Below, in pieces: positions 8,417 to 64,000 of a stretch of DNA of 64,000 nucleotides. The notes beneath the pieces are model-generated. The model searched no databases and had not been told where the DNA came from. It was given only the letters and a program-made list of their open reading frames with translations. The position numbers and the translations under genes were made by a program. This DNA is from Chrysoperla carnea (lineage: Eukaryota > Arthropoda > Insecta > Neuroptera > Chrysopidae): the NCBI RefSeq assembly GCF_905475395.1, contig NC_058337.1, positions 83,198,368 through 83,262,367 on the forward strand. The letters are read 5' to 3'. Numbering within the stretch: position 1 is the stretch's first letter; each line of letters begins with the position of its first letter.

Positions 8417-9492
8417 CAGTGGCGGATTTAGAGATTTGCCGCCCGTAGGCTATTCAATTTTTGCCGCCTCTAAATTTTGATATCTTAGTTCACAATCATA
8501 TCAATTATCTATCAATAAAATTGCAACTTTATGATTTGTGCTCCATTATCCTCAGTACATCAACTTTTCCCGTATGGTTAGTATCATCGAGAACTATGGT
8601 ACCGTGTTAGATCCTTGATTATTTTTACAGCAAAGAATTATCAAAAAACAATATTTTATGCAAAAAATATCTCAAACATGTACCAATTTTAAAGTAAGTT
8701 AAGGTATGTGTTAAAACTATACAATACTTATGTAATAGGAATAAAGCTTACACAAAAAATCTAGATTTGGCGAACGTTGATAAATATTTATTATTACACT
8801 TACAGTTACAAAACAACACAATAAATATATCCTTTCTTAATTATTTGTTAGTATTATAATTCAAGTCAAATTATAAAAGCATTACAATACTATTTTGCGA
8901 CACTTTGAATTCGCAAAATCATTTATTATATCGTCGTACGAAATCTTGTTTATTAGCTCTGACTCTATGCACAAGAGAGCTAAAGCGTTTAGCTTTTCTT
9001 GACTTAAAGTCGATCGGAGGTAGTTCTTTACTCTCTTCAAGCAAGAGAAGCTTCTTTCACCTGAACAATTTGTCGCTGGTGTACAAAGAGCCATACGAAG
9101 TACTCTATCCAAGTTTGGATAAATGCTTCCTAGATTCTGATCTCGCAGGAATAAAGACAGACTTTTTAATAATCCAGACTATAATATGGAATCGCTATTG
9201 CGATATTCTAAAAATTCATGATCATTACATTATAATCAAAAGCGTTTAGCAATTGTTTATGCAGAGATTTTGAGATATTTATTATTTAGCACTGTATATA
9301 GGACTATATTTCGGTTTTTGTTGAATATTTTAATTCCTCTATAATTTTTGAAATTCGTATTTTGTGTGTGTATTATAATTTTTTCTAAATTTTGTCAATC
9401 GAAATAAAAAATTTATGAACTAAATTTGCCGCCCCTTAAAATTTGCCGCTCTAGGCTCCAGCCTACTCAGCCTGCTGGTAAATCCGCCACTG
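8417..9492 (-). mobile_element. hAT-family DNA transposon, internally deleted
   Basis: Both ends begin CAGTGGCGGATTTA when read inward, and the element is flanked by a perfect 8-bp target duplication, GTTTTACA (8409-8416 and 9493-9500). Terminal CAGTG and 8-bp duplications are diagnostic of hAT elements. At 1,076 bp it is much shorter than an autonomous hAT (about 2.5-4 kb). It keeps only the last part of a transposase on the minus strand. The GCCGCC-containing subterminal sequence recurs near both ends. The perfect target duplication suggests a fairly recent insertion. Confidence 0.9.
8882..9112 (-). pseudogene. hAT transposase C-terminal fragment (dimerisation domain)
   Basis: The minus-strand frame of 76 residues contains ATNCSGERSFSCLKRVK, followed by NYLRST, QEKLNALALL and IE. 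This is the conserved C-terminal dimerisation region of hAT transposases. The frame has no ATG at its beginning, and the DNA-binding zinc finger and most of the RNase-H-like catalytic core are absent from the 1.1-kb element, so it cannot be an active transposase. The plus-strand open frame over the same bases (8905-9249) is its shadow. Confidence 0.8.
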
Positions 9493-48500: not shown

Positions 48501-50405
48501 ATTAAATTAGACGCCAATTAGAGCCTGGCCAAATTGGAAACTCATAACAAAGAATTTTCATTAATTCGAAAGCCTCAAATATATCGAAATAATTCTCATT
48601 TATTGAAATGATTATTACATTTATCTATACCACGGATCTAGTAATTATAGTAGGGATGTAGTGTAAAGTCGTACTTTAGACGAGGGTGGTGTATCACTCA
48701 GGGGGAAGCAATGTGCCAACTTTTGATTGGCTGCGGCTCTCATTTGCGGGAAATTCAAATAGAACGATAATATTTCGTGTGTTTTAGATTTTAATATTTC
48801 TACATCCATGGTTTTAAATTGCCTCAAGCAATATGCCTGCTTTTGGCTGCGGCTGTTCGCACTCTCAATTGCGGGAAAATTTAAATGGGTAGTGAATTCT
48901 GCGTGTGTTGTAGATTGGTCCGAGCAAAAAAATTTCATATTTTAAAAATTCTATAATACGTTGAAATTTAGTATTGAAAATTAATCGACGTATTTTACAG
49001 ACATCCGTAAGCCTTCTTTTGAATTTCATTAGTTAACTTATAATAGTTGTAACACTAGGATTGAAGAATGAATATTCACTAAATTGAATAGAACATTGTT
49101 GCGTTTAGGTTACTTATATCGTTGAAAAAATTGTTTTAAAACAAGCATAAATACTTCACGTATTTATTTTTCTTTACAAATTTTAATTTTTTTTTTTGAA
49201 TATAAGATTATTTATTTATGTTGTCCACAAACGTCAACCATATGTAAAACATGTTTCCATGCTTACAAACGAATCAAAAACACTTAAAGAAAGCTTTAAG
49301 CATACTTTTAGCATGCGCCTAGTTAAGAGCCAATAGAAAGTTGGTACAATGATATACTGCCTCTTCCCTGATATCCTGCCTGAGTGAGACTCACCCCACT
49401 CGGTTATACTCCATCCCTTTTAAAATATTCCTATATCCATGATCTATACCGTCATGTGTTGTTTAGAATTTAAAAAAAAAAAACATATTTTTGAGATATT
49501 CACACTAAATATTTTCGTCCTGTAAATATGTACTAAATGCGTATAGAAAATTTGAAGTCAGAGTGAATCCATTTTAAAAACTTCAAATAAAAGAAACTGA
49601 CCAAATTAGTTCGACAACTCAATCTTTTACCACAAGTATCACATTGTTTGTTTTTTAATTGTTTCTTGGCTTCAATAGTTGTATTACCCAACGATTCATT
49701 TTCTACTCTTCTAACACGTACTTTCTTTCGTAATTTAGTTTTTCTTAAAATTCTTTTCGATAATTTACGTTCTAACAAAGATTGTTTTTCAAGCGTAGCA
49801 AATGTATCCTAAAAATTTATTTAAATGCATAAAGCGCTACAATCTTATAAGTTTTTATAAAACAATTACAATATCATTTTCCATATCCGAACATCTTGGG
49901 GAAAATTCTGGAGCTTCATTCTTAATGTCATTCTTAATGTATTTTTCATCAGTCTCGTTAAAATTTTTAACATTATCAGTCGTTCTAAGTTCAAATATAC
50001 TCTCATTACTGGAATGTTTAGGTGAAAAGTCGATCTTAAAGCAATCCTCTTCAAAGTTTACAAGTTTCTTGTGTTCTTCATTCAATTCGCTTTTCAATTT
50101 TTCTTGAAGTTTTAAATCTGTGTCTTTGGCAAGTTGACGAAATTTATAGAATTTATTCACTTCATAAACACATTTTTGGCAAATTTTTTGTGGGAAACTG
50201 TCGTTTTCGGCAACCTAAATGTTTTAAATCTTTAATTTTTATTTACATAATTTACTAAAATTTATCTTACATGAATTGATGTGCACTCCATTACCATATC
50301 CGATAACGTCATAATTTTTTTCTTATTATATCCAAAGAGTGATCGTAAATCTTTAGAATTTAAACAAATTCGACAGCAATTTTCCACATTTATTTGGCTA
50401 TACAT
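45540..50405 (-). CDS. ZAD-C2H2 zinc-finger transcription factor, six exons
   Basis: Exons 50271-50405, 49870-50214, 49602-49808, 48079-48271, 47237-47404 and 45540-45838 join on the minus strand into 448 residues, each junction GT..AG with matching phase (0,0,0,1,1). Residues 1-75 form a ZAD domain, the arthropod zinc-coordinating dimerisation module: CRIC at 11-14 and CQKC at 57-60, with intron 1 between them. An acidic linker and a basic stretch ([10 protein letters not shown]) follow. Eight C2H2 fingers follow from about residue 213 to near residue 425; the first is split by intron 3 ([14 protein letters not shown] / ILHMRKH) and still has the correct C-x2-C-x12-H-x3-H spacing. Linkers of the TGEKP type join most fingers. 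The protein should bind DNA as a dimer; its target and ortholog are not known to me. Intron 3 carries the module also found upstream of the array genes at 54-64 kb. Confidence 0.92.
45839..47236. other. Intron 5 of the ZAD-C2H2 gene
   Basis: This 1.4-kb intron has a CAGTGACGATTCCAG start at about 46004 that resembles an hAT terminus, with a G-run (GGGAGGGGGG) just inside it. I found no convincing partner end. No exon is recognised inside. Confidence 0.4.
48631..48932 (-). repeat. 302-bp module shared with the upstream regions of the array genes
   Basis: On the minus strand this begins TTTTTTGCTCGGACCAATC and ends TAATTACTAGATCCGTG. It matches 54162-54398, 59960-60264 and 63793-64000 on the plus strand, so it has the same sense relative to transcription as the array genes. 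It contains two related blocks of about 50 bases, CCCGCAATTGAGAG..CCGCAGCC and CCCGCAAATGAGAGCCGCAGCC, the second followed by AATCAAAAG, giving a CCAAT box. In this copy alone a 97-codon frame runs through nearly the whole module (48645-48938). It lies in intron 3 of the ZAD-C2H2 gene. It could be an internal promoter, a duplicated promoter or a mobile element; no terminal repeats are visible. Confidence 0.75.
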
Positions 50406-51714: not shown

Positions 51715-52890
51715 ATGTATGAGTATCCTCTTACATGTAGAGTTTTAAATGAAAAGTTATCTTCGAAAAAATATAAAACAATAAAATTTGAACATGAATT
51801 AAATACAGAAATTATTATAAAAGATGAATTATTTGATGGAAATGTTTTAGAACATGAATCAATTCAAAATGAAATCAAGAATATTTCATGTGACTTTTGT
51901 GATAAAAAGTTTGCTAATCAAAGCAGTTTAATTGTCCATAAACGAACTCATACTGGAGAAAAACCTTTTTCCTGTGAAATTTGTGGTAAATCATTTACTC
52001 TTCGAGCTAATTTAGAAAGACATAATCGGGCTCATACTGGAGAAAAACCTTTTTTCTGTGAAATTTGTAACAAATCATTTACTCAACAAAACGGTTTAGA
52101 CTATCACATACGGACACATACTGGGGAAAAACCTTTTTCCTGTGAAATTTGTAATAAATCTTTTACTCTTCGAGGTAATTTAGAAATACATAAACGAACT
52201 CATACTGGGGAAAAACCTTTTTCCTGTGAAATTTGTGATAAATCATTTACTCTTCGATTTGATTTAGAAAGACATAAACGGGCTCATACTGGAGAAAAAC
52301 CGTTTTCCTGTGTAATTTGTGGTAAATCATTTACTCTTCGAGCTAATTTAGAAAGACATAATCGGGCTCATACTGGAGAAAAACCTTTTTCATGGGAAAT
52401 TTGTAATAAATCATTTACTAATCAAAACGGTTTAGACTATCACAAACGGACACATACTGGAGAAAAACCTTTTTCCTGTGAAATTTGTGATAAATCCTTT
52501 AATCTTCGATCTAATTTAGTTCAACATAAACGGACACATACTGGGGAAAAACCTTTTTCCTGTGAAATTTGTAATAAATCTTTTACTCTTCGAGGTAATT
52601 TAGAAAGACATAATCGGACTCATACTGGGGAAAAACCTTTTTCCTGAGAATTTTGTGACAAATCATTTAATCATAAAAGCGGCTTAGACTATCACAAACG
52701 GACACATACTGGAGAAAAACCTTTTTCCTGTGTAATTTGTGACAAATCATTCCCTCATCAAAGGGGTTTAGACTATCACAAACGGACTCATACTGGAGAA
52801 AAACCTTTTTCCTGTGAAATTTGTGATAAATCATTTAATCTTCGATCTAATTTAGTTCGACATAAACGGACTCATACCAGAAAAATTTAA
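51715..52890 (+). pseudogene. Array copy A: 5'-truncated C2H2 gene with an internal stop
   Basis: Homology to copies B and C starts at about 51745 (LNEKLSS); the preceding 80 residues and the promoter module are absent. The open frame from the ATG at 51715 gives 310 residues with nine complete fingers, then a TGA replaces the first cysteine codon of finger 10 (52646-52648; copy B has TGT). Beyond it the frame stays open for the rest of finger 10 and two more fingers to the same HTRKI ending as B and C. Finger 7 reads PFSWEIC, where a zinc-binding cysteine has become tryptophan. With no upstream promoter, a stop and a lost ligand, this is most likely a decaying copy, though a nine-finger product cannot be excluded. 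Confidence 0.8.
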
Positions 52891-53627
52891 TTTCAAACAT
52901 TTATTTTTGTTTTTTTCAAATTGCTTCACTTTAAAATGAAAATGTTGGGATATGGTGTAGAAATTTGAATTAAAACAAATTAATTAAGTTCCCTTAAAAA
53001 TGAATTATCTAATTTTAATTTAAGTCAACATAAGAGATCAACGCTTACAAAGTTTCCTCAAAAGAATTTATTTATAATCTAATATTAAGGATTATGACAC
53101 ATTCGTAAAAAAAACGGTTTAAGTGATAAGCGGCATTATTTTTACAATTTTAATCCTGTATATTTTAAAACTGTTAGAAATAATAAACTCAACCCTCATT
53201 CGCTCACTTGCTCGCTCTTCTCAGTGTGCGCAGTGTATTTGTGTGCACTGTTGTGTAAACTTTGGAAAGCACCCTTATACAATAAGTGTGTGTGGAATGA
53301 CAACCTAAGATGGAGGATAAAGAGTGTTGTTAGTTTCTTAGCATAGAATATATAACCTTACAGATTGTTGTTGGTTTCTTAGTCATAAGATGACTTATTT
53401 TCTTATACAATTTATTATTAATTAATCAAATGTTCTTTTCAACTTGAGAAAACAAAGTTATGTTATAATTTATGTAATTACATGTGTTCATTAAATACAA
53501 TATTAAATAAAAAACTTGCGTCTTTATTTCACTAAAATTCAAATTACCATATTAAAAACTTTAAGCCTGCGCTTGCTAATGGATAAATATAATTCATGAT
53601 TGTACAAGATATAAAGGTCTTTTCATG
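52891..53627 (+). repeat. Shared 3' flank of the array genes, copy A
   Basis: From the stop codon onwards the sequence is nearly identical to 55961-56228 plus 57807-58229 (copy B) and to 61832-62519 (copy C). It includes a conserved stretch, AATAATAAACTCAACCCTCATT and on, that is open in one frame in all copies; the similarity is explained by recent duplication. A probable polyadenylation signal, ATTAAATAAAAAAC, lies near 53500. Copy A lacks both transposon insertions seen in B. Confidence 0.8.
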
Positions 53628-53634
53628 ATGACAT

Positions 53635-53850
53635 GACGCTTGAAGCTGAGTTTTAGAGTCAAATTAGGTCACGCGGGAAGTTTAGGCCGCGCTGTCATCT
53701 GGATGAAAGAAAAAACTTCAGCAACTTCAAGTCGTAAAAAGCTAAATAATATTTGGCTTTTTACGATTTGACACTGCTAAAGAATTTATTTTTTTCATCC
53801 AGATGACAGAACGATTTAAACTAACTTTTTATCATAGAAAAGTATATCCT
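53635..53850. repeat. Foldback sequence between array units (A/B junction)
   Basis: The left part (CTGTCATCTGGATGAAAG .. AAGTCGTAAAAAGC) pairs with the right part (GCTTTTTACGATTTGAC .. TTTCATCCAGATGACAG), with arms of about 55 bases or more around an AT loop. Further copies lie at 59040-59660 (interrupted by an insertion) and 63262-63500. It is probably an old MITE carried along in the duplicated unit. Confidence 0.7.
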
Positions 53851-54039
53851 ATTTTTATTATCAGGATTAATTTTGAGAGTATTTAATAAATAAATTTAAA
53901 TTATATATTTTTTAATGTTTTAATAAAACGAGAATAAAGATTTAATTTAAAAAAATAAAAAATGTATTTTCATTTGATTGCCATTTCCAAAGTATTTTTT
54001 TTGAACAATTGATAATAATATTCACCACCTATTGGGATC

Positions 54040-54400
54040 TGACATATGGGCGGGGCTAAAAAAACATGGCTGACATAAAGTGACAAATTTTAAAAATAAC
54101 ATAGCAATACATACTCTTTGTGCAATTTTTCAAGAAGAGAATGATTAATATTAATGAAAGATTTTTTGCTCGGACCAACCTACAACACACGCAGAATTCG
54201 CAGCCAATCAAAAGCAACCATGGATATAGAAATATTAAAATCTAAAACACACGAAATATTATCGTTCTATTTCAATTTCCCGCAAATGAGAGCCGCAGCC
54301 AATCAAAAGTAGGCACATTGCTTCCCCCTGAGTGATACACCTCCCTCGTCTAAAGTAGGACTTTATACTACATCCCTACTATAATTACTAGATCCGTGAT
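54040..54400 (+). promoter_or_regulatory. Putative promoter region of array gene B
   Basis: A GC box (GGGCGGGGC, 54048-54056) lies about 110 bases before the shared module at 54162-54398. The module holds two CAGCCAATCA CCAAT boxes (54201-54210 and 54296-54305), one base context fitting the NF-Y consensus. Compared with C and D, about 65 bases are missing between TTCG and CAGCC, taking away most of the first block. The coding ATG is at 54494. No TATA box is obvious. Promoter function is inferred from position, conservation in three units and motif content. Confidence 0.5.
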
Positions 54401-54493
54401 ATGAATCGAGCTATTTAGTATTATATGTCTATGATTCAAATGTTATCTTGAACATTGATAGACTGTCATAATTTGAGTGCATCGAATAATAAA

Positions 54494-55960
54494 ATGGAAA
54501 ATAATTTATTCAATGATATAAATAATCGTCTTTTAATCGATGAAGAAAACATTCAATTAAAAAAAGAATTGCATACTGAACTTATTATTAAAAACGAAAT
54601 ATTTGATGAAAGTGATTCAATGGAACATGATTCAATTAAAGAAGAATATGATTCAATGGAGGACCATGAAGCAATTAAGAAGAGGGAAATATTAGAAGAA
54701 AATGTTACAACAAAACACGAACGGATTGATTTAAATGAAAAGTTATCTTCGGAAAAATATAAAACAATAAAACTTGAACATGAATTAAATACAGAAATTA
54801 TTATAAAAGATGAATTATTTGATGGAAATGTTTTAGAACATGAATCAATTCAAAATGAAATCAAGAATATTTCATGTGACGTTTGTGATAAAAAGTTTAC
54901 TAATCAAAGCAGTTTAATTGTACATAAACGGACTCATACTGGAGAAAAATCTTTTTCCTGTGAAATTTGTGATAAATCCTTTAATCTTCGATCTAATTTA
55001 GTTCAACATAAACGGACTCATACTGGAGAAAAACCTTTTTTCTGTAAACTTTGTGATAAATCATTTGCTCGGAAAAACGGTTTAGACTATCACATACGGA
55101 CACATACTGGAGAAAAACCTTTTTCCTGTGAAATTTGTGATAAATCATTTATTCTTCGATTTGATTTAGAAAGACATAAACGGACTCATACTGGAGAAAA
55201 ACCTTTTTTCTGTGAACTTTGTGATAAATCATTTACTCGGAAAAACGGTTTAGACTATCACATACGGACACATACTGGAGAAAAACCTGTTTCCTGTGAA
55301 ATTTGTGATAAATCATTTACTCTTCGATTTGTTTTAGAAAGACATAAACGGACTCATACTGGAGAAAAACCTTTTTCCTGTGAAATTTGTGATAAATCCT
55401 TTAATCTTCGATCTAATTTAGTTCAACATAAACGGACTCATACTGGAGAGAAACCTTTTTTCTGTGAACTTTGTGATAAATCATTTGCTCGGAAAAACGG
55501 TTTAGACTATCACATTCGGACACATACTGGACAAAAACCTTTTTCCTGTGAAATTTGTGATAAATCTTTTAATCTTCGATCTAATTTAGTTCAACATAAA
55601 CGGACACATACTGGAGAAAAACCTTTTTCCTGTGAAATTTGTGATAAATCCTTTAATCTTCGAACTAATTTAGTTCAACATAAACGGACACATACTGGGG
55701 AAAAACCTTTTTCCTGTGAATTTTGTGACAAATCATTTAATCATAAAAGCGGCTTAGACTATCACAAACGGACACATACTGGAGAAAAACCTTTTTCCTG
55801 TGTAATTTGTGACAAATCATTCCCTCATCAAAGGGGTTTAGACTATCACAAACGGACTCATACTGGAGAAAAACCTTTTTCCTGTGAAATTTGTGATAAA
55901 TCATTTAATCTTCGATCTAATTTAGTTCGACATAAACGGACTCATACCAGAAAAATTTAA
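54494..55960 (+). CDS. Array copy B: 13-finger C2H2 protein
   Basis: A 488-residue single-exon protein. Residues 1-127 are acidic and without a ZAD or other known domain, but contain four sumoylation-type sites (IKNE, IKEE, IKLE, IKDE at Lys33, 49, 93, 105); the region is itself an imperfect internal duplication. Thirteen C2H2 fingers follow from Cys128 to the end, with near-perfect HTGEKPF linkers and the ending HTRKI. The fingers fall into a few types by helix sequence: [34 protein letters not shown]. All zinc ligands are present. It should be a sequence-specific DNA-binding protein, perhaps repressive if sumoylated. The start is the ATG at 54494; the frame goes 13 codons higher but without an ATG. 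It is flanked by the promoter module and a shared 3' region. Confidence 0.92.
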   Translation: MENNLFNDINNRLLIDEENIQLKKELHTELIIKNEIFDESDSMEHDSIKEEYDSMEDHEAIKKREILEENVTTKHERIDLNEKLSSEKYKTIKLEHELNTEIIIKDELFDGNVLEHESIQNEIKNISCDVCDKKFTNQSSLIVHKRTHTGEKSFSCEICDKSFNLRSNLVQHKRTHTGEKPFFCKLCDKSFARKNGLDYHIRTHTGEKPFSCEICDKSFILRFDLERHKRTHTGEKPFFCELCDKSFTRKNGLDYHIRTHTGEKPVSCEICDKSFTLRFVLERHKRTHTGEKPFSCEICDKSFNLRSNLVQHKRTHTGEKPFFCELCDKSFARKNGLDYHIRTHTGQKPFSCEICDKSFNLRSNLVQHKRTHTGEKPFSCEICDKSFNLRTNLVQHKRTHTGEKPFSCEFCDKSFNHKSGLDYHKRTHTGEKPFSCVICDKSFPHQRGLDYHKRTHTGEKPFSCEICDKSFNLRSNLVRHKRTHTRKI

Positions 55961-56228
55961 TTTCAAACATTTATTTTTGTTTTTTTCAAATTGCTTCACT
56001 TTAAAATGAAAATGTTGGGATATGGTGTAGAAATTTGAATTAAAACAAATTAATTAAGTTCCCTTAAAAATGAATTATCTAATTTTAATTTAAGTCAACA
56101 TAAGAGATCAACGCTTACAAAGTTTCCTCAAAAGAATTTATTTATAATCTAATATTAAGGATTATGACACATTCGTAAAAAAAACGGTTTAAGTGATAAG
56201 CGGCATTATTTTTACAATTTTAATCCTG
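55961..56228 (+). repeat. Shared 3' flank of array gene B, part 1
   Basis: Almost identical to 52891-53148 and 61832-62100. It is split from its continuation (57807 onwards) by a transposon insertion. Confidence 0.8.
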
Positions 56229-57806
56229 TAGCGCGATTCACAAACATTCGTGATAATTACCACAAAAATGATACTTATCATTTTTTGACGTTTGCACTAA
56301 CGCCTTAGTGATTCACAAACACTCTATGTTAGTGAAAAAGACGTTAAATTTCTTATCGACTTTATTCACAGACTTCTATATGTATTAAAAAATTATTAAA
56401 TAAAAGTTAGTTACTTTTTGTTACAAACCAACAAAAATTACTATAACTAAATTCACATGTAAATAAACTATTATGTCAAATACATACCTAATATAAAAAT
56501 AATTTAATGGCAATTTTTTGAATATACTATTTTTATTTTTAATAATCATTTAATTTCGTGTTTTTGTGCGTGTGTGTGTTTTCTTTTATTAGTTTTAGTT
56601 AAGTTTTGAAATTAATTAGAAAAAAGAACATAATTTTCACCTACTCAACGAGGATGAAATAATTTAGAAAAGAATGTTGAATTAATATATATTGAAATGT
56701 ACATATTTTTATTAATAAAGTTTTGAAATAAAATGAGGAATTTTTTTAATTTAGTTGTAACCTAAATACCGGTATTGTCATCGTCCTTTCAAAAACCTAA
56801 TTTTACGAATCGATTATTTATATCTATCAATTAAAGTAAGAATATTTTGAAAATGAAATTTAATTTATAAACCACGAGTTAAACTTAAGACATCCGAAAA
56901 CTTTTAACATTTAGGGCAATTTGAGTTTTTAGCTCGATGTATCTGTAAGTATTATATAATCATCAAAACAGAGGTAATCTAATTGGTTGTGGGTTGATTT
57001 AAAAAAAAAAAAAAACAATAATTGGAAAAATATGAATATTTATTATATTAAAAAATATTTTAAATATAATGCATCCTACATCTCTCCCATAATCAAACGA
57101 TTTTGAACTGACACTGCCACATCATGAGGGTTGTTATACTATACCATCATCTTCGTCATTATCAATTAAAATGTACTCTGACTCTTATTATGGAAATCGA
57201 GGAGGTCCGCTGCAGCTTCTGTGTAAGCCATTGCTATAAAGATCAAAAAATTTATATCAAAGAAACTTTAAATATCAAAACTTTTTTAAATAAAACAATT
57301 AGTCTGCAAATATCATCTGCAAAAACCATCTTGCAAATATCAGTAACATTTTTTATAAACAATGCTTGAAATAACTTTAAGAAATTTTTTTGTTAATTTT
57401 GAGATAACAATATACATTGTTACTGAAATAACAATATCATTTTAAGAATACGAATAGAATATAACGAAAGAAAATTACTTACCTAAAATCTAACTATCAA
57501 ATAAGAACACCACACAGCACAGAAATAAAATATAAATAAATAAAATCAATTAGTATGATTATGACATTTATTTTGTAATCAAATTTGACATTTGTTTAAT
57601 TAAAATCTTGTCATTGCCCAAGCGACAGAGACGTTACATACTTACCACGAGAATAAAATTTGTTGTTAAGTTAACGCCTAGAGACGATAAGTATCACACC
57701 GCCACCGTCGGTAAAAAATGTTTGTGAATTGCATTTGACGATAAGTACCGCTTTTTGTGATAATTACCACGAAAACGATAGATATGAATGTTTGTGAATC
57801 GCCCTA
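56229..57806. mobile_element. 1.58-kb DNA transposon inserted in unit B
   Basis: The ends are TAGCGCGATTCACAAACATTC and, on the other strand, TAGGGCGATTCACAAACATTC, flanked by a 3-bp direct repeat CTG (56226-56228 and 57807-57809). Copies A and C show the uninterrupted site. Subterminal GATAATTACCAC motifs recur at both ends. A 3-bp duplication fits PIF/Harbinger or CACTA elements, but the end sequence is not CACTA. The longest open frame (57124-57369) does not look like a transposase, so the copy is probably non-autonomous. The insertion happened after unit B and unit C had separated. Confidence 0.85.
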
Positions 57807-58229
57807 CTGTATATTTTAAAACTGTTAGAAATAATAAACTCAACCCTCATTCGCTCACTTGCTCGCTCTTCTCAGTGTGCGCAGTGTATTCGTGTGCACT
57901 GTTGTGTAAACTTTGGAAAGCACCCTTATACAATAAGTGTGTGTGGAATGACAACCTAAGATGGAGGATAAAGAGTGTTGTTAGTTTCTTAGTCATGAGA
58001 TGACAGATTATTTTCTGATACAATTTATTATTAATTAATCAAATGTTCTGTTCAATTTGAGAATACAAAGTTATGTTATAATTTATGTAATTACATGTGT
58101 TCATTAAATACAATATTAAATACAAAACTTGCGTCTTTATTTCACTAAAATTATAATTACCATATTAAAAACTTTAAGCCTGCGCCTGCTCATGAATAAA
58201 TATAATTCATGATTGTACAAGAAATAAAG
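57807..58229 (+). repeat. Shared 3' flank of array gene B, part 2
   Basis: Continues the array 3' flank after the transposon and matches 53149-53610 and 62101-62519. The open frame at 57788-58003 arises by fusion of transposon end and flank and is not a gene. Confidence 0.8.
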
Positions 58230-59024
58230 CAGTGTTCCCAACTCTCAAAATTTTTTCTCCCTAGAGCTCCAACCAAAAACCCCTAAAATCCCTACCATTA
58301 CGGCGAAATTCCCCTAAAAAAAACATTATTGTAAAATACCTTTTTGGAACTTTATTGAAGAACAAATACGGCTGCAATTCTATGGTAAACGATTATAAAT
58401 GTTGAGTTTAATGTTTTAAATTTAATATTTTTTATCGTTATTTATTATAAACAGGACCAGGAGGTTAAAAATAACGTATTTTCTGTTTGAATTCAAAGTT
58501 AAACATTTAAGTGGTCATTCAACTAACTGCGAACATCCTAGCCCTTTCTATAAATTACAAAAATATAATAGAATAACTTTACCTTTCAAGTCTGAATCTG
58601 TTTCCCAAGCTTTAGAGTATTTTTGTATATATTTTTTCTTATCTGTAGTTTTAGACATTTTAATAAACAATAATGAATGACATTCCGCATAGATATGTTA
58701 ATGTTCGTGGTAAACACCGGTAAACGCCATAATGACATTTGTGTTTTAATCAACTATTATATTCAACTCTTAGTAACAAGTCTACTACTAGATGTCACTA
58801 AGCCGCTATATCAAAAATAAATGTGATTAGCTAGATATAGTTAGTCCCGGGCTTATAACATCTCATCTTTATTTGTTTGATTTTTTAATCTAAAAAAGTG
58901 ACTATTCGAAGTCGAAAAAAAAAATCCCTAAAAATACCCCTAAAAATATAACACCCCTAAAAAACCCCCTTCGACTTTTTTGACCCCTAAATTTAGGGGG
59001 ATACCCCCTAAGTTGGTAACCCTG
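58230..59024. mobile_element. Non-autonomous hAT element in unit B
   Basis: The ends read CAGTGTTCCCAACT and, on the other strand, CAGGGTTACCAACT, typical hAT termini. The 8-bp flanks are AAATAAAG and ATATAAAG, a target duplication with one change. Inside are C-rich runs (AAAAACCCCTAAAATCCC) near both ends and no transposase. The same element lies at the same place in unit C (62520-63252), but copy A has the empty site, so it inserted before B and C were duplicated. Confidence 0.85.
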
Positions 59025-59039
59025 ATATAAAGGTATCTT

Positions 59040-59157
59040 TTCATTATGACGCTTGAAAATGAGTTTTAGCGTCAAATTGGGTCACGCGGTCAGTTTAGGC
59101 CATGCTGCCATCTGGAAGAAAAAAAAAACTTTAGCAGCGTAAAGTCGTAAAAAGCTA
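59040..59157. repeat. Left arm of the foldback sequence, unit B/C junction
   Basis: Corresponds to the left half of the foldback at 53635-53850 and pairs with 59555-59625. The arms are separated here by a 387-base insertion. Confidence 0.6.
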
Positions 59158-59544
59158 TTCGTTGTGTGCGTAGTCATGGTAGGGATAATAAAATCGATGC
59201 CAGCGCTTTAAGTGAAAAATTTTGGAGATAAAGTGGGCTGTTATGACTAATTTGCAATTATTTACATGTTAATGATATAGAAACTGTCAAATTAAAATGA
59301 TTGAAAAACACTAATTAATTAAACTTAATGCATTAAAAATTGTGAAAATAAGAAATCAAATTGTACAAATATTATTTTTCAAATGTTAATTATCGTAATT
59401 ATTTATTTAAATTTGTGAAACAAGAATATTAAATTTTAAATGTAAGTTTTCAATGCAATCCACACAATTATATATGCATCCATTAATTCTATAATTAAAG
59501 TAGTGTATCGTTGTCATGGAAACGAAATTCACGCTCGGAGCGAA
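59158..59544. mobile_element. 387-bp insertion within the foldback, TA-flanked
   Basis: This segment is absent from the corresponding places at 53745 and 63380. It is flanked by TA on both sides; its ends are TTCGTTG and, on the other strand, TTCGCTCC, so the inverted repeat is only a few bases. The TA flank fits a Tc1/mariner-type MITE, but the short ends leave this open. No coding is seen; the minus-strand open frame at 59407-59598 is not recognisable. Confidence 0.45.
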
Positions 59545-59839
59545 TATAATGTTTGGCTTTTTACGATTTGACGCTGCTAAAGAATTTATTTTTTTCATCC
59601 AGATGACAGAACGATTTAAACTAACTTTTTATCATAGAAAAGTATATCCTATTTTTAATATCAGGATTAATTTTGAGAGTATTTAATAAATAAATTTAAA
59701 TTATATATTTTTTAATGTTTTAATAAAACGAGAATAAAGATTTAATTTTAAAAAAAATAATGTATTTTCATTTTATTGCCATTTCCAAAGTATTTTTTTT
59801 TGAACAATTGATAATAATATTCACCACCTATTGGGATCT

Positions 59840-60264
59840 GACATATGGGCGGGGCAAAAAAACATGGCTGACATAAAGTGACAAATTTTAAAAATAACAT
59901 AGCAATACATACTCTTTGTGCAATTTTTCAAGAAGAGAATGATTAATATTAATGAAAGATTTTTTGCTCGGACCAATCTACAACACACGCAGAATTCGCT
60001 ACCCATTTAAATTTGCCCGCAATTGAGAGTGCGAATAGCACTCCAATCAACAGCAGGCATATTGCTTGAGGCAATCTAAAACCATGGATATAGAAATATT
60101 AAAATCTAAAACACACGAAATATTATCGTTCTATTTCAATTTCCCGTAAATGAGAGCCGCAGCCAATCAAAAGTAGGCACATTGCTTTCCCCCCTGAGTG
60201 ATAGACCTCCCTCGTCTAAAGTAGGACTTTATACTACATCCTTACTATAATTACTAGATCCGTG
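59840..60264 (+). promoter_or_regulatory. Putative promoter region of array gene C
   Basis: A GC box (GGGCGGGGC) near 59847 and the full module at 59960-60264. The first block reads GCACTCCAATCAACAGCAGG and the second CGCAGCCAATCAAAAGTAGG, each with a CCAAT box. The ATG of gene C is at 60365. The module matches 48631-48932 in reverse. Confidence 0.5.
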
Positions 60265-60364
60265 CCGTGATATGAATCGAGCTATTTAGTATTATATGTC
60301 TATGATTCAAATGTTATCTTGAACATTGATAGACTGTCATAATTTGAGTGCATCGAATAATAAA

Positions 60365-61831
60365 ATGGAAAATAATTTATTTAATGATATAAATAATCGT
60401 CTTTTAATCGATGAAGAAAACATTCAATTAAAAAAAGAATTGCATACTGAATTTATTATTAAAAATGAAATATTTGATGAAAGTGATTCAATGGAACATG
60501 ATTCAATTAAAGAAGAATATGATTCAATGGAGGACCATGAAGCAATTAAGAAGAGGGAAATATTAGAAGAAAATGTTACAACAAAACACGAACGGATTGA
60601 TTTAAATGAAAAGTTATCTTCGGAAAAATATAAAACAATAAAACTTGAACATGAATTAAATACAGAAATTATTATAAAAGATGAATTATTTGATGGAAAT
60701 GTTTTAGAACATGAATCAATTCAAAATGAAATCAAGAATATTTCATGTGACGTTTGTGATAAAAAGTTTACTAATCAAAGCAGTTTAATTGTACATAAAC
60801 GGACTCATACTGGAGAAAAATCTTTTTCCTGTGAAATTTGTGATAAATCCTTTAATCTTCGATCTAATTTAGTTCAACATAAACGGACTCATACTGGAGA
60901 AAAACCTTTTTTCTGTGAACTTTGTGATAAAAAATTTACTAATCAAAGCAGTTTAATTGTCCATAAACGAACTCATACTGGAGAAAATCTTTTTCCCTGT
61001 GAAATTTGTGATAAATCATTTAATCTTCGATCGAATTTAGTTCGACATAAACGAACTCATACTGGAGAAAAACCATTTTCCTGTGAAGTTTGTAATAAAT
61101 CATTTACTCAGCGATCTATATTAGAAACACATAAACGGACACATACTGGAGAAAAACCATTTTCCTGTGAAATTTGTGATAAATCATTTACTCTTCGATC
61201 GAATTTCGAAATACATAAACGGACTCATACTGGAGAAAAACCTTTTTCCTGTGACATTTGTAACAAATCATTTACTCAAAAAAACGGTTTAGACTATCAC
61301 AAACGGACACATACTGGAGAAAAACCTTTTTTCTGTGAAATTTGTAACAAATCATTTAGACAAAAAAACGGTTTAGACTATCACATACGGACACATACTG
61401 GAGAAAAACCTTTTTCCTGTGAAATTTGTGATAAATCCTTTAATCTTCGATCTAATTTAGTTGAACATAAACGGACACATACTGGGGAAAAACCTTTTTC
61501 CTGTGAAATTTGTAATAAATCTTTTACTCTTCGAGGTAATTTAGAAACACATCATCGGACTCATACTGGGGAAAAACCTTTTTCCTGTGAAATTTGTGAC
61601 AAATCATTTAATCATAAAAGCGGCTTAGACTATCACAAACGGACACATACTGGAGAAAAACCTTTTTCCTGTGTAATTTGTGACAAGTCATTCCCTCATC
61701 AAAGCGGTTTAGACTATCACAAATGGACTCATACTAGAGAAAAACCTTTTTCCTGTGAAATTTGTGATAAATCATTTAATTTTCGATCTAATTTAGTTCG
61801 ACATAAACGGACTCATACCAGAAAAATTTAA
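60365..61831 (+). CDS. Array copy C: 13-finger C2H2 protein
   Basis: A 488-residue single-exon protein, exactly the length of copy B. Residues 1-127 differ from B by one residue (TEFIIK for TELIIK) and keep the four sumoylation-type sites. Fingers 1, 2 and 11-13 are nearly the same as in B. Fingers 3-10 are different: their helices include [45 protein letters not shown] and TLRGNLETH. Two linkers have changed (HTGENLFP after finger 3 and HTREKPF after finger 12) but all zinc ligands are present. The same start reasoning as in B gives the ATG at 60365. A DNA-binding protein with probably different specificity from B. Confidence 0.92.
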   Translation: MENNLFNDINNRLLIDEENIQLKKELHTEFIIKNEIFDESDSMEHDSIKEEYDSMEDHEAIKKREILEENVTTKHERIDLNEKLSSEKYKTIKLEHELNTEIIIKDELFDGNVLEHESIQNEIKNISCDVCDKKFTNQSSLIVHKRTHTGEKSFSCEICDKSFNLRSNLVQHKRTHTGEKPFFCELCDKKFTNQSSLIVHKRTHTGENLFPCEICDKSFNLRSNLVRHKRTHTGEKPFSCEVCNKSFTQRSILETHKRTHTGEKPFSCEICDKSFTLRSNFEIHKRTHTGEKPFSCDICNKSFTQKNGLDYHKRTHTGEKPFFCEICNKSFRQKNGLDYHIRTHTGEKPFSCEICDKSFNLRSNLVEHKRTHTGEKPFSCEICNKSFTLRGNLETHHRTHTGEKPFSCEICDKSFNHKSGLDYHKRTHTGEKPFSCVICDKSFPHQSGLDYHKWTHTREKPFSCEICDKSFNFRSNLVRHKRTHTRKI

Positions 61832-62519
61832 TTTCAAACATTTATTTTTGTTTTTTTCAAATTGCTTCACTTGAAAATGAAAATGTTGGGATATGGTGTA
61901 GAAATTTGAATTAAAACAAATTAATTAAGTTCCCTTAAAAATGAATTATCTAATTTTAATTTAAGTCAACATAAGAGATCAACGCTTACAAAGTTTCCTC
62001 AAAAGAATTAATTTATAATCTAATATTAAGGATTATGACACATTCGTAAAAAAAACGGTTTAAGTGATAAGCGGCATTATTTTTACAATTTTAATCCTGT
62101 ATATTTGAAAATTGTTAGAAATAATAAACTCAACCCTCATTCGCTCACTTGCTCGCTCTTCTCAGTGTGCGCAGTGTATTTGTGTGCACTGTTGTGTAAA
62201 CTTTGGAAAGCACCCTTATACAATAAGTGTGTGTGGAATGACAACCTAAGATGGAGGATAAAGAGTGTTGTTAGTTTCTTAGTCATGAGATGACAGATTA
62301 TTTTCTAATACAATTTATTATTAATTAATCAAATGTTCTGTTCAACTTGAGAATACAAAGTTATGTTATAATTTATGTAATTACATGTGTTCATTAAATA
62401 CAATATTAAATAAAGAACTTGCGTCTTTATTTCACTAAAATTCTAATTACCATATTAAAAACTTTAAGCCTGCGCCTGCTCATGAATAAATATAATTCAT
62501 GATTGTACAAGATATAAAG
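61832..62519 (+). repeat. Shared 3' flank of array gene C
   Basis: An uninterrupted version of the flank of A and B, with few differences from A and the empty site of the 1.58-kb transposon at about 62099. The open frame at 62105-62293 lies in the shared flank and has no independent support. Confidence 0.8.
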
Positions 62520-63252
62520 CAGTGTTCCCAACTCTCAAAATTTTTTCTCCCTAGAGCTCCAACCAAAAACCCCTAAAATCCCTACAATTACGGCGAAATT
62601 CCCCTAAAAAAAACATTATTGTAAAATACCTTTTTGGAACTTTATTGAAGAACAAATACGGCTGCAATTCTATGGTAAACGATTATAAATGTTGAGTTTA
62701 ATGTTTTAAATTTAATATTTTTTATCGTTATTTATTATAAACAGGACCAGGAGGTTAAAAATAACGTATTTTCTGTTTGAATTCAAAGTTAAACATTTAA
62801 GTGGTCATTCAACTAACTGCGAACATCCTAGTCCTTTCTATAAATTACAAAAATATAATAGAATAACTTTACCTTTCAAGTCTGAATCTGTTTCCCAAGC
62901 TTTAGAGTATTTTTGTTTATATTTTTTCTTATCTGTAGTTTTAGACATTTTAATAAACAATAATGAATGACATTCCGCATAGATATGTTAATGTTCGTGG
63001 TAAACACCGGTAAACGCCATAATGACATTTGTGTTTTATTTAACTCGCACTCGCTATATCAAAAATAAATGTGATTAGCTAGATATAGTTAGTCCCGGGC
63101 TTATAACATCTCATCTTTATTTGTTTGATTTTTTAATCTATAAAAGTGAATATTCGAAGTTGAAAAAAAAAATCCCTAAAAATACCCCTAAAAATATAAC
63201 ACCCCTAAAAAAACCCCCTTCGACTTTAAAACCCCCTAAGTTGGTAGCCCTG
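62520..63252. mobile_element. Non-autonomous hAT element in unit C
   Basis: The same insertion as 58230-59024: CAGTGTTCCCAACT at the left, and CAGGGCTACCAACT on the other strand at the right, with flanks ATATAAAG and ATAAAAAG. It is about 60 bases shorter than the copy in B because of small internal differences, for example around 63030-63060. Confidence 0.85.
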
Positions 63253-63261
63253 ATAAAAAGA

Positions 63262-63500
63262 TATCTTTTCATGATGACGCTTGAAAATGAGTTTTAGCGT
63301 CAAATTAGGTCATGCGGTCAGTTTAGGCCGTGCTGCCATCTGGGTGAAAAAGAAGCAGCGTCAAGTCGTAAAAAGCTAAATAATGTTTGGGTTTTTACGA
63401 TTTGACGCTGCTAAAGAATTTATTTTTTTCATCCAGATGACAGAACGACCTAAACTAACTTTTTATCATAGAAAAGTATATCCTATTTTTGTTATCAGGA
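63262..63500. repeat. Foldback sequence at the C/D junction
   Basis: A third copy of the foldback at 53635-53850; AGTCGTAAAAAGC and GTTTTTACGATTTGAC arms face each other around a short loop. Not interrupted by the 387-base insertion. Confidence 0.65.
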
Positions 63501-63659
63501 TTAATTTTGAGAGTATTTAATAAATAAATTTAAATTATATATTTTTTAATGTTTTAATAAAACGAGAATAAAGATTTAATTTAAAAAAAAATAATGTATT
63601 TTCATTTGATTGCCATTTCCAAAGTATTTTTTTTGAACAATTGATAATAATATTCACCA

Positions 63660-64000
63660 CCTATTGGGATCTGACATATGGGCGGAGCTAAAAAAACATG
63701 GCTGACATAAAGTGACAAATTTTAAAATTAACATAGCAATACATATTCTTTGTGCAATTTTTCAAGAAGATAATGATTAATATTAATGAAAGATTTTTTG
63801 CTCGGACCAATCTACAACACACGCAGAATTCGCTACCCATTTAAATTTGCCCGCAATTGAGAGTGCGAATAGCCGCAGCCAATCAACAGCAGGCACATTG
63901 CTTGAGGCAATCTAAAACCATGGATATAGAAATATTAAAATCTAAAACACACGAAATATTATCGTTCTATTTGAATTTCCCGCAAATGAGACCCGCAGCC
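63660..64000 (+). promoter_or_regulatory. Putative promoter region of a fourth array gene (D), cut by the window end
   Basis: Contains a changed GC box (GGGCGGAGC, about 63683) and the module from 63793 on, including CCGCAGCCAATCAACAGCAGG. The window ends within the second block. By analogy with B and C a coding region should start about 170 bases beyond 64000. Confidence 0.5.

Follow-up and report, generated by a model that had tools for sequence, protein, structure and literature searches.

The stretch of DNA analysed here (the window: 64,000 nucleotides of Chrysoperla carnea chromosome 1, C1:83198368-83262367) contains a cluster of poly-zinc-finger genes. Four of these (A, B, C and D) are arranged head to tail as copies separated by homologous spacers, the start of gene D lying just beyond the window at window position 64195. 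The genome used comprised 559,487,470 bases in 337 contigs, of which C1 accounted for 139,979,878 bases. Genes B (54494..55960) and C (60365..61831), both on the plus strand like all gene parts given below unless stated otherwise, each code for 488 residues and 13 complete C2H2 fingers. Their spacing is exactly 84 base pairs (bp), in full agreement with the lengths, finger numbers and ladder of 84-bp near-repeats described in the initial annotation. In both genes the fingers are preceded, within the same open reading frame (ORF), by a region of 127 residues referred to here as the tag (residues 1-127; 54494..54874 in B and 60365..60745 in C). Gene copy A (51744..52890) is pseudogene-like: it retains a 5'-truncated tag and 12 fingers, with the first Cys of finger 7 changed to Trp and that of finger 10 to a stop codon.

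Comparison of B with C revealed closely similar ends around a divergent middle. Nucleotide (nt) identity amounted to 378/381 in the tag, 84/84 in each of fingers 1 and 2 (54875..55042 in B, 60746..60913 in C), and 83/84, 80/84 and 62/63 in fingers 11, 12 and 13, respectively (55715..55960 in B, stop included). Likewise, the 5' flanks matched at 275/278 positions (plus 7 gap positions) and the 3' flanks at 268/270. Fingers 3 to 10 (55043..55714 in B), on the other hand, shared 61, 74, 65, 78, 63, 74, 81 and 72 of 84 nt; in percent, they fell between 73 and 96% as against 95-100% for the tag, the flanks and the five end fingers. When each finger was summarized by its base-contacting helix residues (-1, 2, 3 and 6), gene B read NSSV LSNQ RNGY LFDR RNGY LFVR LSNQ RNGY LSNQ LTNQ HSGY HRGY LSNR, and gene C read NSSV LSNQ NSSV LSNR QSIT LSNI QNGY QNGY LSNE LGNT HSGY HSGY FSNR (helices of fingers 3-6, NSSV to LSNI, at 60914..61249; fingers 7-13 and stop at 61250..61831). 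The ends had been described as almost identical, which held at the nucleotide level and without reservation for fingers 1-2; yet contact residues also changed in the tail, in finger 12 (HRGY in B, HSGY in C) and finger 13 (LSNR in B, FSNR in C). The exchange of eight middle fingers stood as an exchange of a block, with finger 9 differing by just 3 nt and one residue, and the figure of eight is therefore a block count.

Relationships among fingers were examined in a close family of ten genes: A, B, C and D, two copies on chromosome 4 at 29.94 Mb (c4a and c4b), three at chr1:2.127-2.135 Mb and one on chromosome 3 at 60.37 Mb. The tree was built from 113 parsed fingers over 84 columns with 200 bootstrap trees; many of its forks stayed open, and the parser missed the decayed first finger of D. 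Same-numbered fingers of B and C paired at all five end positions (1, 2, 11, 12 and 13) and at none of the eight middle ones, where bootstrap support for pairing was 0% in each case. One-to-one orthology of all 13 fingers, which had been named as one outcome that would overturn the proposal, is ruled out by this tree. Collinear runs, defined as diagonals of at least three fingers each no more than 7% divergent, pointed to relatives of individual blocks. Fingers 4-6 of C ran with D2-4 (4.4% mean divergence) and also with c4b3-5, C8-13 with fingers 5-10 of the chr1:2.134 Mb gene (2.8% mean divergence), and C9-13 with A8-12; the nearest relatives of C finger 3 were first fingers of other copies. 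Gene C is thus a block mosaic with a head like B, fingers 4-6 like D and fingers 8-13 like the chr1:2.13 Mb gene. Further runs joined A10-12 to B11-13 (0.4% divergence, or 1 nt over 231 nt of fingers) and D1-10 to fingers 2-11 of c4b (1.2%).

Several arrays also bore marks of internal rearrangement. In B, a two-finger duplication placed the RNGY-LFDR/LFVR pair at fingers 3-4 and again at 5-6, and fingers 2 and 7 had identical 63-nt cores. The chromosome 3 gene displayed an internal four-finger repeat (fingers 10-13 against its own 3-6, 1.5% divergence), and the chr1:2.127 Mb gene a contracted array of four fingers, NSSV RNGY QSIT QSIH, whose types occur at both ends of D and c4b. As the internal duplications, the contracted array and the collinear runs show, arrays grow, shrink and share blocks. 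Together with tree mosaicism and the homologous spacers, these observations support the exchange that had been proposed between finger units, presumably by unequal crossing-over or conversion. The scale of the exchange is wider than single units passing between B and C alone: blocks of several fingers are involved, and their partners lie both inside and outside the cluster.

Assemblers are commonly misled by near-identical repeats, and the middle arrays might in principle have been misjoined or collapsed. We regard such an artefact as extremely improbable, judging from assembly and sequence. PMC10116181 describes inChrCarn1.1 as assembled from PacBio long reads (HiFi libraries) with a contig N50 of 67.8 Mb; the assembly analysed here differed slightly from that version in chromosome 3, X and total, and is probably a later one. 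No N base was found in the 164 kb checked around the locus, and the same finger orders recur in genes at other loci. Moreover, the spacers carry large copy-specific insertions. Spacers A-B (52891..54493), B-C (55961..60364) and C-D (61832..64000) were piecewise collinear with 83-100% identity, B-C consisting of the A-B blocks plus insertions. Of the three spacers compared, B-C alone contained one of these, a repeat element at 56231..57806; a further eight copies covering bases 1-1299 of its 1576 were recorded at 89-94% identity (40 of 94 candidates scored).

A dispersed repeat of 197 bp (54202..54398) adjoins the gene-specific 5' DNA of B on its upstream side and ends about 95 bp 5' of the start codon of B. 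A 292-bp stretch 5' of B also precedes C, D, c4a, c4b and the copy at chr1:2.127 Mb, whereas only a portion of it precedes the chromosome 3 copy; other matches (query positions ~1-197 or 15-200) were distributed over C1-C5 at 92-97% identity (40 of 179 candidates scored). As this stretch precedes B, C, D, c4a, c4b and chr1:2.127, their promoters may lie in repeat DNA.

Transfer as DNA rather than as processed mRNA was indicated for two of the distant copies. Upstream of c4a and D, about 600 bp of spacer were held in common (96.5%), and chr1:2.127 shared the 3' part of D at 95%, including ~1.2 kb past the last open frame of D. A retrocopy origin is thereby ruled out for both, which must have moved as DNA segments; the case is weaker for c4b because its common upstream DNA is mostly dispersed repeat. 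A single crossover joining a C head to an A tail was also considered for the origin of B. The head of B sided with C at 7 sites to 0, and its tail plus 3' flank with A at 8 to 1 (Fisher p 0.0014). When sites were polarized with outgroups (in the fingers and tag only), shared derived sites numbered one for B=C in the head and two for A=B in the tail; two others were private to A, four private to C and one was unresolved. Different spacer blocks favoured different copy pairs, and this scenario was retained as suggestive only.

Substitution patterns bear on whether the helix differences matter at all. Broken-core fingers and duplicate fingers were removed beforehand, and intervals were obtained by bootstrap over fingers, pairs not being independent. 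Contact codons were the most variable finger codons, and the excess of non-synonymous change expected at positions -1, 2, 3 and 6 was indeed present, 2.6- to 4.1-fold over scaffold codons. The contact-to-scaffold ratio was 3.8 [3.2-4.6] for all pairs of the close family and 2.7 [1.9-4.2] for pairs at most 15% divergent; among 16 distant genes, the corresponding values were 2.6 [2.4-2.8] and 4.1 [3.1-5.4]. Between D and c4b, whose ten fingers correspond one to one, two of the three changed non-core codons were non-synonymous at contact positions. The ratio of non-synonymous to synonymous change (pN/pS) at contact codons was 1.05 for all close-family pairs and 0.95 [0.67-1.36] for those at most 15% divergent, as compared with 1.07 and 2.0 [1.4-3.1] in the distant genes. 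The low close-family value is probably due to whole finger types having been exchanged together with their synonymous differences. These figures fit relaxed-to-positive selection at contact codons, and they fall short of proving that B and C evolved under positive selection.

The same figures could be read as neutral birth and death, where an 84-bp ladder recombines by nature and the helix differences have no adaptive meaning. Such a reading accommodates the close-family contact ratio of about 1, the fact that block exchange alone explains most B/C differences, and the broken state of A, D (frame shift) and c4b (stops in the tag). It is nevertheless somewhat unlikely, since core C2H2 codons of the close family were nearly devoid of non-synonymous change (pN/pS 0.01-0.06, broken cores having been dropped beforehand) and five of the ten close genes (B, C, c4a, c1.2131 and c1.2134) keep an open frame over 10-15 fingers without a broken one. 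The ratio of 2.0 in the distant genes also speaks against neutrality, although it applies to pairs at most 15% divergent and drops to 1.07 over all pairs.

The tag, which is constant between B and C, proved to be widespread in the genome. A search with the B tag returned at least 156 matches, some of them two per gene (150 of 590 candidates scored), and a search with the diverged tag of gene E returned 92, including eleven other full-length copies (88-95%) on C1, C2, C5 and C6, the latter being taken as X from its size. Gene E itself (C1:83271006-83272845, minus strand, L041-L042) has a frame of 613 residues with 17-18 fingers. None of five tags tried gave a Pfam match (two at E <=5, three at E <=1). 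What the tags did display was the motif psi-K-x-E, where psi stands for V, I, L, M or F. Motifs were counted in the 48 tags with DNA at hand, omitting L018, L025 and L032 as second views of L015, L021 and L016: 262 were present as compared with 33.4 in shuffles of the same composition. All 45 tags of at least 100 residues contained 4-10 of them (five in B), and an acidic residue followed within the next four positions in 212 of the 262 cases (a count made without control). In nine control stretches of the window, among them the finger regions of B and C, 4 motifs occurred against 3.4 expected, and pre-finger stretches of seven other zinc-finger genes had 0 or 1 each; an eighth control gene, L006, turned out to be a tag gene with 4 motifs. 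In L021, L015, L016 and L072, the tag was lengthened by internal duplication, and the motif count rose to 7-10.

Conservation within the tag followed the motif. Forty tags were aligned, leaving out L022, L038 and L030 (below 100 residues, L030 being empty) and the long or near-identical L010, L015, L016, L021 and L072. The three strongest sites fitted the motif in 37/39, 35/39 and 34/39 rows, and three weaker ones in 25/36, 17/37 and 15/33. Entropy at x exceeded that at K and at E in all six sites, and that at psi in four; at the two strongest sites, it was 0.17 and 0.34 bits for K, 0.17 for E, and 1.84 and 1.70 for x. Mean conservation over the six sites was 0.86 for K, 0.83 for E, 0.77 for psi and 0.62 for x, the other tag columns reaching 0.70 for K and 0.64 for E/D. 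A motif at the head of the tag was present in 41 of 45 tags in differing registers. By its motif pattern, the tag is a SUMO-consensus array and a putative substrate of SUMO attachment. No SUMO-motif tag in an insect zinc-finger family was found in a literature search covering titles and abstract openings.

The explanation that we consider fairly probable is a young family of repressors that change targets by exchanging finger blocks and act through SUMO, with SUMO attachment, repression and transposon targets being putative. A gene-plus-spacer unit has duplicated head-to-tail into a young, active cluster of single-ORF poly-zinc-finger genes, whose arrays are mosaics of multi-finger blocks shared, in frame along the 84-bp ladder, with neighbours and distant copies. 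Since replacement affects the middle of the array and spares the ends (tag, fingers 1-2, last three fingers and flanks), it is the predicted DNA target that shifts, the effector portion being left as it was. The fingers would bind lineage-specific DNA, most likely repeats, and the SUMO-modified tag would recruit SUMO-binding silencing factors of the SetDB1/NuRD type; block exchange would then re-aim a constant silencing tag. In Drosophila, SUMO on Bonus is required for repression and influences the interaction with SetDB1 (PMC10672805).

A number of observations weigh against this explanation. The observed contact pN/pS of the close family, as mentioned above, is about 1. Position x is not always free, since L occupied 32/39 rows at one site and H 29/37 at another, and it is at these two sites that psi was more variable than x. 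In close B-type tags, insertion of an Arg disrupts one motif (IKKR), and a second has Thr at psi (TKHE). Motif counts are not independent events, as tags were found by mutual likeness and are related by descent. Finally, single-sequence AlphaFold modelled the tag as one long helix (best mean pLDDT 85, pTM 0.33; five models ranging from pLDDT 85 to 39), which is not the open strand commonly expected of a SUMO site. The helix, along with the internal repeats of some tags, would rather suit ordinary developmental transcription factors or architectural proteins, in which an acidic helical tag binds partners and psi-K-x-E arises incidentally from an amphipathic repeat rich in K and E. This possibility is unlikely in our view: composition shuffles gave about 8-fold fewer motifs, x varied more than K and E at every aligned site, and the head motif persisted despite its shifting register.

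Placement of this putative repressor family among known zinc-finger systems was attempted by domain searches and by traits. Neither KRAB, PR/SET nor ZAD domains were among the best 25 of 30 (B) and 25 of 29 (C) Pfam families (all at E <=0.05); the B and E tags scanned alone at E <=5 matched 0 families, KRAB included, and NCBIfam gave nothing useful on B and C. By these domain tests the lacewing family is not KRAB, PRDM9 or ZAD. The comparison with KRAB genes and PRDM9 drawn in the initial annotation therefore survives as a likeness in working and fails as membership. KRAB zinc-finger genes combine a constant N-terminal effector with changing fingers. B and C share with KRAB zinc-finger proteins a tandem C2H2 array (13 fingers) with TGEKP linkers, their non-orthologous fingers between recent duplicates are a trait of rapidly recombining poly-finger families, and the excess of psi-K-x-E over chance in the tags is the consensus trait of SUMO substrates. 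The solved chains closest to the B fingers were those of ZNF568, a KRAB protein. In mouse, tandem C2H2 genes likewise grow by segmental duplication with repeats within the cluster (PMC11952569). Unlike them, the lacewing genes are from an insect, have tag and fingers in one ORF and gave no KRAB match. PRDM9, which was also among the best solved-structure matches of the B fingers, has a ladder of near-identical fingers changing by unit exchange; it differs from the lacewing family, where gene copies are many and no PR/SET domain was found in B or C.

Among insects, ZAD genes form an expanded family with an N-terminal domain. Four were recorded in this genome, at window 49855-50214 (minus strand) and at L005, L007 and L008, all with PF07776 in the same Pfam library and with one or two psi-K-x-E motifs before the fingers (IKEE, VKEE, IKNE, LKSE). 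In contrast, B and C gave no ZAD match, and lacewing tags of at least 100 residues have 4-10 motifs; the tag may represent an amplification of such a ZAD-gene site. A further parallel comes from the FiNZ genes of cyprinid fish, a young and sizeable family whose short, Glu-rich N-terminal tag contains no known domain (PMC10547256). The FiNZ tag, however, has 28 residues on its own exon (PMC10547256), against ~110-130 residues in the finger ORF of the lacewing genes. Pfam gave no FiNZ match for any of five lacewing tags, but the library may lack FiNZ. The FiNZ consensus presumably includes IKEE/IKIE-like motifs as well. In architecture and dynamics, the lacewing family works like KRAB and FiNZ families. 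Some FiNZ clades display dN/dS (non-synonymous over synonymous rate) above 1 at base-contacting residues, and when fish FiNZ genes are knocked down, transposable elements are derepressed through a pathway still to be identified, the paper giving the effector mechanism as unknown (PMC10547256). The number of zinc fingers tracks that of retroelements across animals, flies and nematodes being among the exceptions (PMC10547256).

Apart from the zinc-finger genes, the window contains a short frame (8882-9178, minus strand) with a hAT transposase C-terminal dimerisation region (PF05699, E 2e-13), and no tRNA was found in it. Near the end of chromosome 1, a bacterial-type 16S rRNA gene (L049, C1:139382497-139383821, 1191 bits) with repeated flanks is either a bacterial insertion or assembled symbiont DNA.

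As to the lacewing family as a whole, it could form a large and independently evolved repressor arsenal, whose effector would be the array of 4-10 SUMO-acceptor sites and whose multi-finger blocks would be shuttled among copies on different chromosomes, a more ambitious proposal that we put forward tentatively and with some doubt. If true, SUMO density would take the place of the folded adaptor domain of KRAB, and the same logic may underlie other tag-bearing zinc-finger families, such as FiNZ. The silencing route of expanded zinc-finger families beyond tetrapods is an open question, and since the lacewing tag consists almost wholly of candidate SUMO sites in a row, it offers a direct and cheap test by lysine change. 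The cluster, made of recent duplicates with nameable likely relatives of source blocks, is also a clean system in which to measure finger-block exchange. With its re-made finger arrays and retained tag, it hints that insects may have their own equivalent of the vertebrate families by which jumping genes are silenced.

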